From Heliocybe sulcata (lineage: Eukaryota > Basidiomycota > Agaricomycetes > Gloeophyllales > Gloeophyllaceae), in NCBI GenBank assembly GCA_004369045.1, contig ML213504.1, positions 1,660,894-1,724,893 of the forward strand: a DNA stretch of 64,000 bases. The letters are read 5' to 3'. Within the stretch, counting starts at the first letter, position 1. The number at the start of each line of letters is the position of its first letter. A program made the position numbers and the translations under genes. The notes beneath the pieces were generated by a model. The model saw only the letters and a list, made by a program, of their open reading frames with translations, was not told where the DNA came from and made no database searches. Positions 35,881-48,114 of this stretch are shown here, in pieces.

Positions 35881-36300
35881 TGGGATGCTTGTACTGCCAT
35901 GACTCCGGGAGACTTGCGGCTCATGGAAGACGGGCTTGATTAACCGTCAACCTTGCCAGAGAATTGACCATACTTCTGTCGAATGTGTCCGTCTGTCCTG
36001 AGCAGTGTTAACAATTAACATGTCGGAGGTCCTTGGCGGTTGTTGTGTGGTTGTGTGAATACAGAAAAACAAAGCCTAAATAAGTGTTGTTTTCGACTTC
36101 TTGATGGAGCGTAAGCGGCAAACAACGGAAAACGTAATGTGAACACAAAGGCTACCCCTTTCGGAAGGCAGGGCGGACTGATCACCGCCAAGTTCATGTA
36201 GAGACGCTCTCCGCCGGTACCACTGCTTTACTGCTCCCAGCTCCTACGTGTCTTTCGTTCTCTACCGCCACGGTATAGTTGCAGCTGACTTGCAAGTTCA
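35881..36300. other. Intergenic, promoter of the C2-domain gene
   Basis: About 420 bp after GH125. No feature recognised apart from the region directly upstream of the ATG at 36301. Confidence 0.4.
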
Positions 36301-38664
36301 ATGTCGGATACCCCTCGCGAAATTGGCACACTCATTGTTGTGATATTGAAAGCGGTGCGCGTCGAATGTGCAGTGTCTCCTAAGTATGCTAACCTGACTG
36401 CGCACCTGCAGAGAAATCTACCGAATAAAAGACATATCGGAAAACAGGATCCTTACTGCACTGTGTCATATAATAATGAAAGACGAAAGACGAAGGCGAT
36501 CAAACGAGGCGGGCAGCATCCAGAGTGGGACGAGGAAGTCCGATTCACATTATTTGAGGATGCGGAAGACGAATCAGCTCGAACAGTCAATGGGGACGAG
36601 TCGCCACCACCACCACCGCCTAAGGATGGCAGAGCTCCTAGGGGAGTGAAGGGAGGCAAGATTATGAAGCTCGCCTGCTATGCCGACGATCCCAGGGAAC
36701 CTGATCTGATTGGCGAAACAAACGTGGATTTGACGGAGGCCCTAACCAAGGGAGAGACTGATGGTCAGTGGGATTGCCATAGTATGCCGCTTCAGTTTGT
36801 TGATCCTTCTGCAGAATGGTTCACGCTCATGCACAAGGACCGGTACAGCGGAGAAGTGTATTTGGAATTGACGTTTTGGTCGAATGTATGTGGTTCGTCG
36901 GCGTCAGTTACTATGCAGTGGTCCTAATATTACAGCCAGGCCCCTCCCCCGAAGAAGAAGTCCGTTCCGAAGCCTGTCGTGAACAGGAATCAATACGGCG
37001 GTGCAGGTTCATTTGTCCCCGCGGAAGAGATGCGTTCAGCGTCGCCCTCCCAGAACGATACTGTCACTCAGTACTCCCCGTCCTCGTGGGCTTCAGTAGC
37101 AAACGACGATGCATCTTCCTATACTACGTGGCGGCCAGACTCCGCTTCCGAGTCTTTGAGGCCATCGGGGTCTCATGCGCAACTCGACCTCTATGTTGCT
37201 CCTTATGAACGCGCTAATCATCCGAATGGTACCGAAAGCTCATCTGCCCTGGACCAACTGACAAACGACTTCGCCGAATTCGGCGTTAACGGACACCGAG
37301 GGAGGACCGAGAGCTACCCGGTATGCATCCTGAATTTTGATATACGCTCGTTGTATTGACATCACAACTGCAAGCCGGTACGAAACGGATATCCGCCTCG
37401 ATCAGCCTCCTTGAGCGGCATCTCGAATCATGAGTCGCTTGGTCATCACCCTCATAGTTACAACGGCAGCACCTATTCCGATGGCGGGTCGTCGTACTAC
37501 GGACAGCCCTCTACTCTGATGGGACACCCAGGAGATAATCAAAGCTCATTCTCGACTCCGCCTCATGTGCCGGCTCCCTCAGGTTTCCAGACCCCTTACG
37601 ATGCCACATCTAGCTACCCGCAGTATCGGACTCCGACACGTGCAGGCGGACGCTATAGCATACCAAGTTCTTCGTCCGGTTTCATGCCTCTTCCGGGACC
37701 TTCGGGCTTTATCCCATTGCCAAGTCACCCGTCGGAATCGTCTGGGTTTGGTGCACCGCTGCCTGTGCCTACACCTATGCCGTCTGGTTTTATGCCGGTG
37801 CATAGTCCTGCACCGTCTGGATTCATGCCGTCGGCGCCATCATATACGGGCCCACTGTCATACGGCTATAATTTGTACCATCCGCCTCCAAATAGTGCGA
37901 CACCACCGCAACATTATACGCCGCCTCTACCATCAGCATCTGCTCCTCCTCAACAGCATCCGCCACCTCAGCCTTCGACCTCTGCACCTCCCCTAACTCA
38001 CTCGTCTCATTCCGCGCCTCCCCAGTCTTACCCCGTCCATGCACAAGCACCCTCTCCTTCTAATGAGCAGCTGATATTGCCCCAGAGCACATCAAATTCT
38101 ATTAACTCCAACGGAGGATCGAGGCCCCTTCCACAACAACCCCAGCCCTACCCTCCTCCTCAGCCCCCGTCTCACCGGCGCATTTCGCTACCCGTCCCCC
38201 CTCCCCCTCCTCTACAGGGACAACATCAGAACGCCGTTGCCTTCCCTCCTTCGCAGCCGCTAGGGCATATTCCCCCTCCGCCTCCATTGCCTTCGCAGGA
38301 GGGAACCAACTCGTATCTATTCAACGTTCCGCCCCCGCCCCCATTACCGTCTTCGCAGCTGACGAGTAGCCCCATCAACATTGGTTTTGGGCGGCCACCC
38401 TTGCCACAGCCTCCTATCAGTTATGGAGGAGCTACACCTCAACCCATATACCAACCCATACCTCCTCCTCCCCCGCCGCCTATGATCCCAGGAGCGCAGC
38501 ATCCGACGGTACCGTCTCATAGTCCTATCACGCAGGCACCCTACCCTGGACCGCCACCTAGGCCCCCGCAAATGAACGGAGAAAGTGGGCTCTCACAATG
38601 GACACCTTCGGGTCCTTCTCAGAGCAGCTTTCCACCTCAGTGGGCAGATGTCACTCAGCAGTAA
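36301..38664 (+). CDS. C2-domain plus proline-rich protein, Fic1/Inn1-like (cytokinesis)
   Basis: Five exons (36301-36354, 36412-36763, 36815-36885, 36940-37320, 37375-38664) give 715 aa. Residues 1-150 form a C2 domain: EIGTLIVVILKARNLPNK, KQDPYCTVSYNNERRKTKAI, HPEWDEEVRF, MKLACYADDPREPDLIGE and GEVYLELTFWS. A linker rich in Ser/Pro follows. The last 400 residues are a long Pro-rich tail with repeated SGF[MI]P units and many PPPPP and PxxP stretches. This architecture matches Inn1 and Fic1, which bind SH3 proteins of the contractile ring and help primary septum formation. Assignment by architecture and the C2 sequence; PxxP partners are inferred. Confidence 0.82.
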
Positions 38665-39722: not shown

Positions 39723-42194
39723 CTATGTGTCAGAATTTCTACGCTGCTGGTAGCCGGTGTCCAGGTTCAAGGTCGCAATTTCACTCTCCTCTGAACATGC
39801 AGTGAGTCGGTCCGCGCCGCTGAATGCCACCTGCACGACCTTACTATCATGGAAGCACGACATCTGAAACAATTAAGACCGTCAATGCCATGTGCATCAT
39901 CTTCGGAATCATAACTGCGCACCGACAACGCCGTGGCCTGGGTATTTCGCAGGTCCCACAGGCGGATGGAACCCTCACGGTCACCACAAGCAAAACTCGA
40001 AGATCGAATGGCAGCTTCAGCATGCGTTCATACTTTGTGAAGGAGATCCAGAGATCGAAACCGAGCAGTCGCACCTTTAATGTATCTCCCGTTGGTGTGA
40101 GTACTTGGATAGCCGAAGCGCTGCACAGGTTTTTCCGGGACCAGGCGGTGGTCCTGGATTTCGAACTGCTGCTCTCGATGGCCGACCTATGCGCAAATGT
40201 CTGAGTTGGGAATGGAGTTTTCGTATCCAGACACCTACCTCGAGCAAATTACAGAACGGGTTCTCCAATTCATGCACATGATACACTGAATTAGACAGCT
40301 TCAAAGACCGTACGACTCGTTCAGACGACATGTCCCATAGGTGGACAGAACGATCTGCGCTCGCAGAGATCAGCTTATGACTGGTATCGTGTATCGCGAG
40401 TAACGACTGGATCATAGACGTTTGGTTTATCGAGACTAGACTGGGCTTTGCATAAGTCAAAGAGGTCGCATCCCGTAAGAACCATAGGTGAATGGAGTGG
40501 TCGTAGCCTCCGATAGCAAAAGCGCCTGGCTGATGCAGAGGACAGACCGCGCTTGCACCACTTCCCGTCTTCGTATCGAGTCGACTCGGCTTGTCAATTG
40601 TCACCGCATTGTGGGCCTTGACGAACGCGTCAGATTCGGCCCCACCGACCAGTTATGGAGGTAGTACTTGTCCTACCTTGCCCTGAGAAGTATCGAAGAG
40701 AGATATTTGCTTTTTCTCTCTGGCATGCGCCAGCATTATCAGACGGCAGCCTGCAATGTTCAAGAGACAAGCGTCGTCGACGAATTCCTGGCAAGGACTT
40801 TCCGACGCTCGCAGACAAATGGGTGCTCTACCAGAGTAGGATGATCAATCCAATGCACAAACGAGGGGAAAGGTCACATACGTCGAGTGAAATGTCTCCA
40901 TCGCATATAGGAATCCGTGCATAGTGACAGCATAGAATACTTCTTGACGTGTGCTCGTGCAGAGAGGAAACATAAGACGACGAGGTTTGTCGCGCTGATG
41001 CTTTGGTAGGAAGAACCTTATACCTTCCCGTTCTCGACCTCTGGTATAGGGGTCGGCCAGATAATTAGGTGCAGAAGCGAGGGAGGCACGTGAGCCCGAC
41101 GTATCTGGCAACACCAGCGACCTTTGAAACTGCCTAGCATGACTGAGTGGTGCATCTGAAGAAGGGGCAATACAGGAGGAAGCAGAATCGGGGAGGCGGT
41201 GAATTCGTAGTTTCTTAGATGTCCATTTGGAAGTTGAAAGCAACAGTGTAGCCGTCGCTATCCCACAGCCATGGTATCGGGCGCCCTCCTGCGTGCCCAA
41301 ATTTATGTCATCAGGATGCCTATCTTCAATGGCCCCTTCTTCAAGGTCGTCCGTATCCCTAGTGAGGTCGATGAGCACTATATCCGGAGACGAAACAGGC
41401 TCCAATGTCGGGCTCATATGTTCCGAGAGGGGCAATTCCCCACTCGGTCCAGCATCCTCTACATCAACGGCAGCAGAGTAGGCTGTGCCCTCTCGCGCAT
41501 CTTCGGATGGTGTACCATGAGATTCCGGGCCTTGGGACTCAAGTTGTACTTCTGTTCCTATATCAACAGTACAGGCGCCCGGATGCTCGGAGGGATATTT
41601 GAGGAAAGTGAATGAAATGCTGTCGTCGCGAACAAGGTACTGTATGAACCTTAGCCCATGCTGCTTCTGCAGTATCTTCTTATTCTTGTTGATCCAGTCT
41701 TGGCGAAACTTGTTGCAGTTCGGAGCTCCCTTTCGGCAGCTGTACGGCAGATGCACCAAGAAGTTGACATACTCCTTGCTAGCTTTGTCTGTCTTGGTTC
41801 CATGCGACATGCTTGAAGATGAACAGACAGAGGCCTGAGGTCCAGTCCAGTGCTGAACATCGTATTCGACTTCTATCTTCCGCCTTTTGCGAGGTCGACT
41901 GTGATCGGCGGCTGGAACAGCAGGTCTCTGCGAGATATACGCACAGCCGGGGGAATCATTGACAATGCGAGAGCTCTCCCCAGTGAGTCCCTGCACAGGA
42001 TGGCCTCCATAGACCAATGACGAGTGCCGCCGGAACGACTTGTGAGTATTGGACGGACGACCCCAACCCCTTCCACGACCCTGTCCCCGACCCCTTGAAC
42101 ATACATTGGTGCTGCGAATCAGGGGCACTCCTGCGCCTTTACCTGCTAAGCGGACTTCGTTCGGTTGCGAATCTTCGCTGCTATTAGGAGGCAT
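39723..42194 (-). CDS. WD40 protein with long disordered N-terminus, member A of a divergent pair
   Basis: Six exons (40882-42194, 40677-40827, 40239-40616, 40075-40186, 39923-40014, 39723-39863) give 728 aa. Residues 1-120 are basic and contain RGRGQGRGRGWGRPS and a likely nuclear signal (RPRKRRKIE). A small compact region around WINKNKKILQKQHGLRF may be a domain. A long acidic, Ser-rich region follows. The C-terminal 300 residues are WD40-like: FAIGGYDHSIHLW, LISASADRSVHLWDM, FACGDREGSIRLWDLRN and LTACSEESEIATLNL. The start region faces a paralogous gene transcribed the other way from 42488. No named family was recognised; a nuclear scaffold role is inferred from the nuclear signal and WD repeats. 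Confidence 0.75.
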
Positions 42195-42487
42195 GACGCA
42201 GTCTCAGAGCGTATGAGCAGTCAATGCAGCAGACAAAGCAGGATGTGATGGAAATATATAGGGAGCGCATATATTCAATATGATGGGAGGATCTACATGC
42301 AACGCGACGCGCCCGTGCGAACTGTCACGCTCGCGTCCTTCTCCGCACTTTAAACGTTCAACGTTCAACGTCGAGCTGTGCAGGACGGCGCCGCTGATTT
42401 GGTCTCTTGCTCTGCTCAGTGCTTAGGCCTTAAGACTCTCTTCGTGGGCTGTTAGCAGCTGACTCTTCTCGTGTCTCGACACATTCA
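42195..42487. promoter_or_regulatory. Shared promoter of the divergent WD40 paralogues
   Basis: 293 bp between the two starts. It contains tandem AACGTTC words near 42353-42371 (AACGTTCAACGTTCAACGT). Expression from one promoter would let the pair be co-regulated. Confidence 0.5.
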
Positions 42488-45356
42488 ATGGATACGCTGT
42501 CTGCGAAAAGCCTCGGGAAACGACCCGCGGATACTTTGGCTGGCAGTCCTGTGAAGGAGCCTTCAGTTATACCGCCGGGCCTAACGGTAGAACGGTCGGG
42601 GAGCAAAAGGGTGAAGATGGACTATTCCGTGTCTGACAGCATAGGATCTGAGCTGCGTTTCGACTCCAGCACCTCTTCGAGAGCTCCAACCAGGGGCGTG
42701 GAGAGGCTTTCGCTCGATGTAAGAGCAGTCGACCAGGCAGCTCTGGATAAATTAATTTGGGATGCCAAAGACCGCCTTGCTAAAGCCCATAAGAGGGTAG
42801 ATGGCAACCAAAGGATCTGGTATGTCACGATCTTGCTATCCACTTCCACGGCAGACTCATCTTGACGAGCAACTCAGTGAAGACGGAGTTGCCATCGATT
42901 GGTGCGGAGATATGTTGATCGCTCTTTCCGAAATTCACATATAAAATCAGGGTCCTTGACCATTCAAAGTACGAAGAGAAAGGATCATTGCTACCTATAC
43001 TGCAAGGGTCTCAATCGAACCATACCGGGCTCTCTTGCAGTAGACTCGGACTAGTAGATGAAGTTCCGGTTGGTTGTGATCGAGAGCATGCCATAATGGT
43101 CTCTGACTCGGAAGAGGAACTAGGCAACGACGTGAATCCAATTACCTCGGCCATCGCTGGGTCGAGAAAGGAAGCCGAGCCTATTTTCTGCGCAGGAGGT
43201 GGGCCGTCGCCTCATGGCTACCCTTACCGTGTGGCGAGCCGCAGACCCATAAGTCCAACTACGTCTGGTGTTGGCATCGAAGACTCTTGTGCTCGACGAG
43301 CGCGGGATATACACGCGCTGGTGGGGACGTCTACGCACCACGTCACGGCGGCCCCGGAAGCAAACTCTGTCCACCTCATGGCTGCTGGTCCCGTAGAACA
43401 TGATGTGCCTGGATCTGCAATAAGTTCAGCATTACTATCTCCAGCATGTCACATGACGGCGCTACCAGGACTCAACAATGCTTACCACCCCATGGTCATT
43501 GGTAGCGGACAACCCGACGTGCTCCAACGTACAGAAGCACAGTTTCAAGTGCCGCGAGTGGCTGGATTGGACCCGTCTGGCGCTGATGCTAACGGTAACC
43601 GCTCCTCTTCACCGGAGAGCCTGCGCGTCTCTGACTCCAGTGGTTCCGGTTCTGAGGATGGGACGTCGGAGGGCGACGAACCTGCGGAACGTCTCAATCC
43701 AAGCTATGCCCGTCAATCTACTGTCGAGCGAATTGCGGCACAGATCAATGCTAGCGACGTTACTTCTGGCGGTCCTGCAACATGTTCTGGGCAGGATAGT
43801 GCGCCGCTGTATGGCAGTGAAGAGTCTGAAGAGAGAAGTCTATCGAGCTTGGGCAAAGAGGAGCAACCACGAACTACCGGCATTATCCCCAAGTCAGAGC
43901 GCCGCATACAGCAACGTAATCTGCTACGGGACGATGTTGGCAACACTATTTCTGGCAGTCGTGCACCCCGTGGCATATATAACAATGCATTGTCGGATTC
44001 CAGTGACGAGTCTGCTGAAGGAAGTCTGTCAACCTCGGACGAAGGAGAACCACCACAGATTACGCACACCAGCTGCCGATCTCGCCATAAAGTGCGACAA
44101 ACTCGGTCCGGCGGTGGTCGACCCGTCGCATCTGGTAGTGTATCGCCGACTCCAGAAGACGATGGGAAGCATGTCGTTATCCCTAAGGCCAATAAGTACA
44201 CCCGCGGACGAAGGATGCTCGTACCCGGGGATCCAAGTGAGCTCGTGGTCACAGTTGGTATGCGTGGCGACATTCAGTATCTTCGGAATAAAGAATGGTG
44301 CGCCCTGAAGGGAAGAGTCTCAGGATCTGTGCTGATCCGCTCCTGACAGGGTTTCTACGTGGTCTACGCCAGCGGATAATTACCGTCACGTAGACGATGC
44401 CATCCTAATGGGCGATACTGTCGTGGTCGGCTACTCAGCCGGTCCATGCCAGATAACACTCACGCCTCTTACCTCCGCTTCGACAGTAGGTGTGGGTATA
44501 TCAGTGTAATGTCGAAACTTATATTCCCTAGAATCAAAAACCTTTCGGGGAGGACCTGGACCAGAGGCCACACAAGAACGCTGCAACTGCACGTACTGAC
44601 AGAACCTATGACCTGAGGATCAGCTGCCTTGGCCCAATGGGCCGACAACGGTCCAGTTTCCTCAGTGGCGGCTACGACAAGTCGGTGGTGCTATGGAACA
44701 TTGACGAGGCAGGGGACGTAACCACCGAACGCCTGCGAGTATACCACTCTGGACCTGTCCACGCCGTTGCGTATTGCGATAAGAACAGGACTGTCCTCTC
44801 CTCCTCGGGCCGAAAGCTATATGAAACTAGTATAACGGGCAAAGGTTTCAAGAGTCTGCCAATGAAGATGTCCACGTCCATTCGCCACATCCAGGTTCAT
44901 CCACAAGAACCGAATCTCGTGGTCCTCGAGGTGGGTCCACGGATCCAACGCCTCAGACCGTCTCTGACTTTCGGATCCACGCAGATGGGGGATTTGGATG
45001 ACCAAATTCACATATATGATATTCGACAGCGCTCCTTCGATCGGACGCCATGTGTGAGATTTGGTCGGGACGAGCACCGCTCGGAGCTGGTATCAAGGCG
45101 TTTCCGGCGGGGGAGTATATTCATGACCTACATGTGCCTCGGGTATGCAGATGGGCGGATGGTGCTTTGGGATTATCGTAACCCCAAGGTGTGTACTGCT
45201 CCCGATTTTGCCATGGCCGTTTCATTTACCGTTTTATGGAAGAACGTTACCATTAAGAAGGAGCGACAGCGGGGAGATTCAATCGAGCACACGGCTCTGT
45301 TCCACTCAGACGTGCTCGCCTACGGAGGACGCACCGTTACGTTCTGGCAAATGTAG
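42488..45356 (+). CDS. WD40 protein with long disordered N-terminus, member B of a divergent pair
   Basis: Five exons (42488-42819, 42878-42901, 42951-44297, 44350-44485, 44532-45356) give 887 aa. A further intron at 45189-45242 (GTGTGT...AAG, 54 nt, no stop) may remove 18 residues. The N-terminus has a helical segment DKLIWDAKDRLAKAHKRVDG, then about 400 residues of Ser/Asp/Gly-rich disorder (SDSSGSGSEDGTSEGDE). The C-terminus aligns with member A: RRMLVPG, RHVDDAILM, FLSGGYDKSVVLWNIDE, TVLSSSGRKLYETSI and CLGYADGRMVLWDYRN. Sequence has drifted far, but motif order and spacing agree. Function unknown. Confidence 0.75.
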
Positions 45357-45494: not shown

Positions 45495-47457
45495 TCACGC
45501 GTTCCATCCTCCCAATTCAATAGCGAACGCCACGACGAATTTAGAGAATTGAAGCATGTGGTCAAAGCTGAACTCAGGCGAGATGTCGATACGACTATCG
45601 GACAGGACCATCAGCGGACTATCATGATTAAGCGAGGTGCCGACGTACTCGTTCCCGGTATGAATGTTCTTGTTTGAATTCTCAAAAGCGCTCTCTGTAT
45701 ACCGAATCAGATCATCTTCTCGCAAATCAGCAATCGAGGAATTAACGCCGCACCCTGGCTGTAGGAGCTGGCATAACCAGCCTTTGCCCACGAGGCGCTG
45801 CGGAAGTGGATGTTTAGCCATGTGCTCGGGAACGCCTTGAGCGAATTCGCTCACTGGTCGCTGCAGGCGTACCCGCACTCCGTCTCAACGTAAGGAATAT
45901 CGAGGTACGTGTCGACAAGCTTCTTATTAAAGTCTGTAAGCCTGTCGAAGAAAAGCCAGATGTCAGAACGACTATCTCATTCCTGAAAGTAACGCCATAC
46001 TCTGGATCTACGAAGTCAGTGATTATCCCGACCTCCTCGCGAGTGCCTCGCTTTACCCACGCTGTCATGTCGAGCTGCGAAACCGGGTCAGCACCGGTGG
46101 CAAAACATGAAATCGAGAATACTCTCGATACCTGAGTCGTAGCAATGACATTCCGCGATTGGGCAGCATAGAACTTTGCCACGGCTTGTGACCCAAGCAG
46201 GCCCCCTTCCTAGATCGAGAGAAGCATCTGTTAGTTCCTAGATGGTACAACGCGGATATGAAGCGAACCTCTGCTGAATACCAGTGGAACTCGACAGTGC
46301 GGACCGGCGTAAAGTCTGCAGCTATGAGGGCACGATAGCTCTCGAGGATGGTCACAGAACCGCTGCCATCGTCATCAGCACCCGGTGCCGGCAAAAAGGG
46401 CCACAGATTTGTGCTGAAAAGCACATCAGTCAACGCGAGCAGAATTGGATTGGATTTAATTTACCTATCTTGGTGGGCACTAATAATTATGACGCTGTCA
46501 TCCTCAGTTGAAGAACCGTTGATGCTGGCAATCTAGACACGATGATGGATAATACGCTGATTTGCTCCCTTCTTACACGTACTATAGAGTTCTGGCCCCA
46601 GGAGTGACTAAATTCACTGATACTGATACGTTCTTGGAGTGATTCTGAGGCATACTTGGCCGTAATCTATGAAGGGCGAGTCTGAGGGGCGGTACACCAT
46701 TCAATCCTAGGAAGGTACCTCGGAAATCGTGGACAAGAGCCATTGCTGTGACTGACGACCAGTCTACCAGGAGGCATCTGTCAGATAATGATATAGCAGC
46801 AAACTTGACAGCAAATACATCACTCCGGTAGTCTGATATATGCGTTAGCAGGAAGACTACGAGGGAGTCGGCAGGCCCGCGTACATCTGGTTCGGAAACT
46901 AGTGAATTTAGCGAGATTCTCCTTAGGTCCGGCCGTGGACAGGGTCTTGAGCACAGGTTTAACCTGCTCAGTTGAATTAGGGGATGGGAACGACGCTACC
47001 AAGAGTCATAATTCAAGTCAATGAAACATAACGACATTCAGACATCAATGTAACCGTACACTTGCGCAGCTCCTTTGGGCGAGCAAGGCTGTCCAGGTCC
47101 TGTGTTTCGGTGCTGACAACACAATTTATCAACGAATAAGTCCTCTGCCCAACATGAGCAGATGATATCACATGTCGAAGAATCTAAGTCCTTGAGCTTT
47201 GGCCTCGATCTTGCAAACAAGTAAGCCTCGCGATGACCGCGCAGGTCATGAATGGAGAAACCTTCTCTAGCTCGGTCATCCATCTAGGGTCCTGACCGTG
47301 CAGTTGCACGAGACGGCGTTCATTAAGGTCCAGCTCAATTCCCGGGTAATTGAGATCGCCCTCGACGAGGGGCAGCTGCACAGCGGTCTCAGATCTAGAG
47401 AAGGGCGTAGCGAGCACGGCGTACGCGCCAACTATCAAAGCAAAGCAGCACTTCATG
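45495..47457 (-). CDS. Secreted M28 leucine aminopeptidase
   Basis: A many-exon minus-strand gene (about 14 exons, roughly 400 aa), starting [16 protein letters not shown], a clear signal peptide. A propeptide follows ([17 protein letters not shown]). The mature enzyme has [26 protein letters not shown] with the first zinc His, [18 protein letters not shown] with the bridging Asp, [20 protein letters not shown] with the catalytic Glu and a zinc Glu, [20 protein letters not shown] with another zinc Asp, [16 protein letters not shown] and [20 protein letters not shown] with the last His. All five ligand positions are present. Such enzymes clip N-terminal residues from peptides outside the cell. 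It is divergent from mitochondrial uL11 (156 bp apart). Confidence 0.9.
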
Positions 47458-47613
47458 ACGGCCAGGGGTAAGAGGGCTCTAGCACTGCAGAAGCGGCGCA
47501 TACGAGACGCGTCCCTCACGTGGGGCGGATGTGGCGTTGTTTGTTCCAAGTTTGTTCCGCTTTCCCTCGAAGCTCTTTCAAATTGCGGTAAAGCCGGTTC
47601 ATGCAGCGCCAGC

Positions 47614-48114
47614 ATGTCCAAGGCAGCAGCACAAAAGGCGCGGGCGCAGGTTGTGGTATGCCCGTACCTTCTCTCTTTGCGACATTAAACTGATAGTCTG
47701 CGCAAGCGCATCCTGGTTGCAGCGGGCAAAGCGGCGCCGACGCCACCTGTTGGCCCTGCTCTTGGTGCTCGTGGAGTGAAGTCGATGGATTTCTGCAAAG
47801 AGTTCAATGCTCGAACAGCGCACATCGAGCCAGGCGTACCTACTCCCACTCTGATCACGATACAGCCCGATCGTACATTCACCTTCATAACCAAAACTCC
47901 CCCGACCACCTATTTCCTGAAGAAGGCTGCTGGAATCGAAAAGGGCACAGGCCGAGCCGGGCATGAGATAGTGGGTACCATTAGTCTGAAACACGTGTAC
48001 GAGATTGCGAAAATCAAGGCCACGGACGAGCACCTGAAACATTTGCGGCTGGAGGCTATCGCGAGTACGATCGTTGGTACAGCGAAGACGCTCGGGATCC
48101 AAATCGTCCCATGA
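47614..48114 (+). CDS. MRPL19: Mitochondrial ribosomal protein uL11 (MRPL19-like)
   Basis: From about 47729 to the TGA at 48112-48114 the frame is clear: [80 protein letters not shown] and a terminal helix ending TLGIQIVP. This is the uL11 fold of the stalk base. The likely N-terminus is [12 protein letters not shown] at 47614. The join between these parts is not settled: KLIV, expected next in the family, is encoded at 47689-47700 but no canonical intron ends there. The alternative frame from 47601 ([10 protein letters not shown]) joins with a good GTATGC donor and TTGCAG acceptor. Identity is sure, the 5' structure is not. Confidence 0.85.

Follow-up and report, generated by a model that had tools for sequence, protein, structure and literature searches.

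Two fungal WD40 proteins are the nearest described counterparts of the gene pair reported here. Raf1 (also Dos1 or Clr8) of the fission yeast Schizosaccharomyces pombe has, according to the consulted part of its description, a helical domain at its N-terminus, then an additional domain and a seven-bladed propeller, with WDxR motifs at residues 515-518 and 573-576 (PMC3271066). DCAF26 (DIM-9) of Neurospora crassa carries WDTA and WNVR in consecutive blades and shows strong binding to DDB1, as far as the portion of the source consulted describes it (PMC2944796). The DWD pattern, against which such motifs are scored, spans 16 residues with 12 defined positions (PMC2944796, PMC5749748). Here we describe two divergently oriented genes, A and B, in a stretch of 64,000 nucleotides from Heliocybe sulcata (assembly GCA_004369045.1, contig ML213504.1, positions 1,660,894 to 1,724,893 of the forward strand), hereafter the window. 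The genome searched comprised 51 contigs (31.6 Mb), with the window on its contig C2.

Homologous C-terminal halves in a head-to-head gene pair

A and B lie back to back, as a first-pass annotation of this DNA had placed them: the A stop codon ends at 39723 and that of B at 45356, with a gap of 293 bp between the genes. The same annotation had described a block-by-block similarity of the C-terminal parts, and this proved to be far beyond chance. BLASTP aligned residues 388-675 of A with residues 521-812 of B in a co-linear manner over 309 columns (24% identity, E = 8e-12). The local alignment score was 132, whereas 1,000 shuffles averaged 34 and peaked at 57, and hhalign run on the two single sequences gave a probability of 92.6% (E = 4.5e-7). 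The strength of this similarity is uneven along the domain. The scores of blades 3-5 and of blades 5-7 were each reached by none of 1,000 shuffles, and that of blades 1-2 taken alone, which show a weak likeness, by 56 of 1,000.

Since WD40 domains all resemble each other, we compared the pair with open reading frames (ORFs) of the same genome. The comparison set held 667 ORFs from 41 loci, of which 5 were similar to A, 30 belonged to the WD40 family and 6 matched CPSF_A. The 30 WD40 loci were drawn from 149 listed WD40 matches, which in turn are those of 381 candidates that received a score; none of the 149 falls in A or B, the repeats of both being too diverged. Among the fetched loci, A and B were reciprocal best matches at 53.5 bits, with runners-up at 37.7 bits for A and 33.9 bits for B. 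In an exon-wise search of the genome with A, five of the six non-self matches ranked above the sixth, the B exon (16.1 bits), and a search with the whole of B returned B and not A. The homology signal therefore resides in the whole co-linear domain and not in a single exon.

The intron positions of the two genes were also compared. In the propeller region, the intron phases are 2,0,0,1,0 in A and 2,0,0,0 in B, and four introns agree in order and phase (2,0,0,0). The third propeller intron falls at an exactly equivalent residue (NLLE|VG in A and VVLE|MG in B). When the four B introns were anchored on introns 1, 2, 3 and 5 of A, the global alignment score was 37, compared with at most 5 in 5,000 random anchor sets and with 63 for the free global alignment. 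Shifting the anchors singly by up to 30 residues ranked the true place 11, 11, 1 and 5 of 61. For introns 1, 2 and 4 the agreement thus holds to within the uncertainty of the alignment and is not exact. The unshared introns are one extra in A and two extra in B. A B intron that seemed by eye to match the fourth intron of A was rejected because its removal destroys the reading frame at WDYRN.

Taken together, the reciprocal best match, the co-linear alignment and the shared introns point to an old inverted tandem duplication, from which A and B very probably arose. We take the shared introns as the mark of an old duplication followed by some minor gain or loss of introns. The paralogy of the WD40 halves that had been read from the DNA is thus well supported, and the pair represents a sound but unexceptional duplication of an ordinary kind of gene. 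If the pair is conserved across related fungi, it could serve as a simple model of a duplicated docking protein dividing its work under one control region. The gene models and mapped features are collected in Table 1; alternative splice choices are possible in the less conserved parts of both genes. The short and frequent GT..AG introns are in keeping with a fungal origin.

Table 1. Coordinates of genes A and B and of their mapped features within the window
Feature	Coordinates	Strand	Basis and remarks
Gene A, 728 residues	42194-39723	-	Predicted; spliced by hand, five GT..AG introns of 52-60 nt, frame open throughout
Gene A exons	42194-40882, 40827-40677, 40616-40239, 40186-40075, 40014-39923, 39863-39723	-	Intron phases 2,0,0,1,0
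Gene B, 846 residues	42488-45356	+	Predicted; spliced by hand, six GT..AG introns of 46-69 nt, frame open throughout
Gene B exons	42488-42819, 42878-42901, 42951-44297, 44350-44485, 44532-44930, 44985-45188, 45258-45356	+	Intron phases 2,2,2,0,0,0
A C-terminal propeller, residues 381-728	39726..41054, introns included	-	Seven WD40-type blades by eye; PF00400; alignment to B
B C-terminal propeller, residues 520-846	44152..45353, introns included	+	Seven WD40-type blades by eye; WD40 models below cut-off; alignment to A
A WDLR, blade 6, residues 671-674	39947..39958	-	9 of 12 defined DWD positions
B YDIR, blade 5, residues 757-760	45015..45026	+	9 of 12 defined DWD positions
B WDYR, blade 6, residues 808-811	45168..45179	+	6 of 12 defined DWD positions; aligned with A WDLR
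A SUMO-interaction-like motif IVLIDLTRDTDDLE, from residue 272	41340..41381	-	Pattern scan
B SUMO-interaction-like motif IMVSDSEEELGN, from residue 167	43093..43128	+	Pattern scan
Gap between A and B start codons, presumed bidirectional promoter	42195..42487, 293 bp		Sequence

Family assignment and predicted fold

The first reading of the DNA had found no familiar WD40 family for either protein, and Pfam agreed. The sole model that A matched above its cut-off was the generic WD40 repeat PF00400 (27.6 bits for a cut-off of 27; 25 of 26 matches listed), the other propeller models staying below theirs. B reached 17 bits against PF00400, under the cut-off; it matched one WD40 propeller model at E = 9.8e-7, and none of the ten WD40-type models found at E values up to 1 passed its cut-off. 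WD40 repeats are assigned to A by PF00400, and to B by the propeller model and by homology to A. Among the named WD40 families of Pfam, neither protein exceeded any curated cut-off. The two genes were not found to be orthologues of separate known families, either in Pfam or among the solved-structure matches listed.

Searches against solved structures were read from the best 60 of 164 matches for A, 60 of 109 for the B propeller, 60 of 305 for a two-sequence profile of A and B, and 60 of 84 for blades 5-7 of A. These matches formed a mixed WD40 set, led for A by a presumably MEP50-like protein, with PLRG1 and U5-40K, and for the B propeller by Prp17 and RACK1; the profile retrieved a further mixed WD40 set. 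Blades 5-7 of B gave 8 weak matches (E values from 0.081 to 1.5), including RUP2 and CAF1/RBBP4. Blades 1-2 of B had no match to solved structures, and those of A had no WD40 protein among 16 matches, mostly helicases. AlphaFold, run on single sequences, gave low-confidence models for five blades of B, with two introns translated through, and for a single exon of A; their predicted local distance difference test (pLDDT) values were 32 and 38. From the repeats and their alignment, we infer a seven-bladed fold for both domains. No relative of A or B was confirmed among viral contigs (39 pattern matches) or prokaryote genome contigs (72 pattern matches), as expected since both are fungal genes.

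N-terminal parts of A and B

Disordered N-termini had been described for both proteins, and this held: residues 1-380 of A and 1-519 of B form long parts that had no Pfam match and in which, on a rough count, disorder-type residues abound. The claim of a shared N-terminal helical region fared otherwise. The local alignment of the helical stretches of A and B was at shuffle level (182 of 1,000 shuffles), the score of the whole N-terminal parts was reached by 812 of 1,000 shuffles, and the two 13-residue pieces named by the first-pass annotation score 8, a value reached by 2,767 of 186,576 pairs of N-terminal 13-mers. A common N-terminal helix was rejected on this basis, the similarity being no better than that of shuffled sequences.

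A pattern scan found basic stretches resembling a nuclear localization signal (NLS) in both N-terminal parts, PRKRRK in A and KRVK in B, in addition to the SUMO-interaction-like motifs of Table 1. A and B are probably nuclear proteins. In the linker of B (residues 391-502, positions 43765-44100), which is acidic and serine-rich, an imperfect internal repeat of about 50 residues was detected, with a score reached by 2 of 1,000 shuffles.

Possible function of the pair

Which function could such a pair serve? The best single mechanism that we can propose, as a tentative one, is that A and B are nuclear DCAF-like substrate adaptors of a CUL4-DDB1-type ubiquitin ligase. The proposal draws on the WDxR-type motifs, on the NLS-like and SUMO-interaction-like stretches, and on an architecture like that of Raf1 and DCAF26. 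An arginine of the DxR type closes blades of both proteins (WDLR in A, YDIR and WDYR in B), a feature that is not specific; two such motifs in consecutive late blades are both found in B (757-760 and 808-811), and one is found in A. The ancestral protein would have been nuclear, with a seven-bladed WD40 propeller at its C-terminus and a long flexible part before it; an inverted tandem duplication of its gene would have produced A and B, both still under one presumed common promoter region of 293 bp. Through the propeller face bearing the [WY]DxR arginines of blades 5 and 6, the proteins may dock on DDB1 of the CUL4 ligase. Their nuclear target may be found or held by the flexible N-termini, which carry the NLS-like and SUMO-interaction-like stretches. 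Since the duplication the N-termini would have been replaced or have lost all recognizable likeness, and the targets of the two copies are therefore probably different. In that case A and B would be new target receptors of a fungal CUL4 ligase. A literature search found no report of this pair, nor of such a head-to-head arrangement of adaptors.

The H. sulcata genome holds three clear cullin loci and a weaker one, and Rse1-type propeller loci on contigs C5, C14 and C16. By sequence, the C16 locus is presumably DDB1-like and the C14 locus CFT1-like. There is also one Pre-SET locus, with a SET-like stretch close by as judged by eye. Among the listed structure matches, Sof1/DCAF13 was the fifth for blades 5-7 of A (E = 1.2e-5), followed further down by a denticleless homologue (E = 0.063), and COP1 was matched by the two-sequence profile (E = 1.2e-4). 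These three proteins are linked to CUL4.

Several observations weigh against an adaptor role. No match to the strict 16-residue DWD pattern was found in A or B. Their best-scoring repeats, LISASADRSVHLWDMS in A and FLSGGYDKSVVLWNID in B, satisfy 10 of 12 positions and both lack the final R/K. A has a single WDxR motif, its blade 5 reading FEIQ. The motif is also common, as [WY][DE]x[RK] stands at 6 of 61 distinct repeat ends of the fetched ORFs. Sof1/DCAF13, the denticleless homologue and COP1 stand among many unrelated WD40 matches, and neither Raf1 nor DDB2 was among the listed structure matches of A, B, the profile or blades 5-7. A conserved N-terminal docking helix was not found in either protein, and the CPSF_A model recovers the loci on C5 and C14 and misses the presumed DDB1-like locus on C16. 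The published descriptions, as far as consulted, point the same way. DWD proteins are put at about one third of those with WD40 domains (PMC5749748), and in Neurospora 3 of 16 putative DCAFs, DCAF26 among them, are reported as strong DDB1 binders (PMC2944796), which makes WDxR a poor predictor of DDB1 binding. Changing the WNVR arginine of DCAF26 merely reduced DDB1 binding, and deletion of the region abolished it (PMC2944796). The WDxR motif is thus a lead and no proof.

The reading that we rank highest, a little short of an even chance, is that A and B are an old duplicated WD40 scaffold that acts in another nuclear process, be it chromatin, RNA processing or the cell cycle, independently of CUL4 and with WDxR as common WD40 sequence. 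This is a class of functions rather than a mechanism, and the DCAF-like adaptor ranks below it. It accords with matches that fall among splicing, ribosome and CDC20-type proteins and further WD40 families, with no named family over its cut-off, as well as with the frequency of the motif at other repeat ends and its poor predictive value. The blade 6 WDxR arginine, however, has been retained in both copies despite an overall identity of 24%, which counts against this reading.

Less likely than either is an obligate heterodimer of A and B, or a recognition pair under rapid change, kept linked for joint inheritance and expression. The fixed head-to-head layout with one short common gap and the strong divergence of the duplicates would fit this idea, but the divergence fits age equally well. 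Intron gain or loss, which left A with one unshared intron and B with two, speaks for an old event, and head-to-head gene neighbours are common in compact fungal genomes. It is similarly doubtful, and to a slightly greater degree, that the pair are duplicated specific orthologues of Raf1/Dos1 or DCAF26/DIM-9, that is, two adaptors for a complex of histone H3 lysine 9 (H3K9) methyltransferase and CUL4. The same overall architecture, the location of the two DxR motifs of B in the penultimate blade and the one preceding it, which is what the published Raf1 positions suggest for that protein, and the presence in the genome of a Pre-SET locus, cullins and a presumed DDB1-like gene are consistent with orthology. 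The solved Raf1 structure was nevertheless absent from the matches listed, and the likeness is drawn from published descriptions. Dim-9 has a recruiting role in Neurospora, yet it appears dispensable for H3K9 methylation, the conserved parts being Dim-5, Cul4 and Dim-8, according to one comparative study (PMC9676040).

We regard as improbable a more elaborate version of the adaptor proposal, in which two diverged Raf1/DDB2-like WD40 receptors, kept head to head under one promoter, would act as alternative or paired target readers of one CUL4-type complex, guided by SUMO and linked to chromatin. Finally, that A and B are unrelated WD40 genes and neighbours by chance would agree with the low rank of B in the exon-wise search and the failure of B to retrieve A, but the full-length alignment, the reciprocal best match and the common introns already disfavour it and leave it very little probability.

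The intergenic gap and the surrounding genes

The gap between A and B contains three ACGCG cores (42302, 42307 and 42332; span 42302-42336), two of them adjacent, which resemble the MluI cell-cycle box (MCB) and might relate to G1/S expression. As many ACGCG were present in 106 of 2,549 samples of 293 bp from across the window, and the full ACGCGT was not found within the gap. A cell-cycle MCB reading was rejected, given the lack of a full ACGCGT and cores that are only mildly unusual in number. The gap also carries a tandem AACGTTCAACGTTCAACG at 42353-42370, and TTCAACG occurs in it in 2 copies, compared with 0.04 expected per 293 bp at the rate of the window itself.

For the genomic context, 20 of the 130 kept ORF pieces were searched against Pfam. 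Matches were obtained for nine of them: GH125, C2, M28 peptidase, glycosyl hydrolase (twice), aminotransferase, an isocitrate-dehydrogenase-type domain (below cut-off), Arf and G-patch. A mating-type or cluster context was rejected, no homeodomain being present among the 20 searched pieces, with the other 110 not searched. The gene next beyond B, tail to tail with it, encodes an M28-type peptidase (match at 46068-46460 on the minus strand; extent by eye 45498-47684). The plus-strand interval 36289-38661 encodes a C2-domain protein and, after it, a long proline-rich open frame, a make-up like that of cytokinesis C2/proline-rich (Inn1-like) proteins. Elsewhere in the genome, near-consensus WD40 repeats occur on contig C17 in four open frames, each about 390-430 codons long, at about 32-34, 93-95, 105-106 and 114-116 kb; such repeats resemble the WD40 domains found in NLR recognition genes of fungi.

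Comparison with known systems

A and B bear the same propeller signature as generic WD40 proteins (PF00400; propeller models of Prp19, THOC3, WDR3 and CDC20) and remain far under the cut-offs of all the specific models. With the WD40 propellers that dock DDB1 they share [WY]DxR motifs that could serve the same contact; they differ from them in missing the strict DWD pattern and in the docking helix discussed above. Their likeness to Raf1 and DCAF26 lies in a long N-terminal part, a C-terminal WD40 propeller and fungal origin and, as far as the consulted parts of the descriptions go (PMC3271066, PMC2944796), in WDxR-type motifs in two consecutive late blades, of which A bears one. No sequence link to either was seen among the matches listed, and what sets the H. 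sulcata locus apart from both systems is that it holds two diverged copies, placed head to head.

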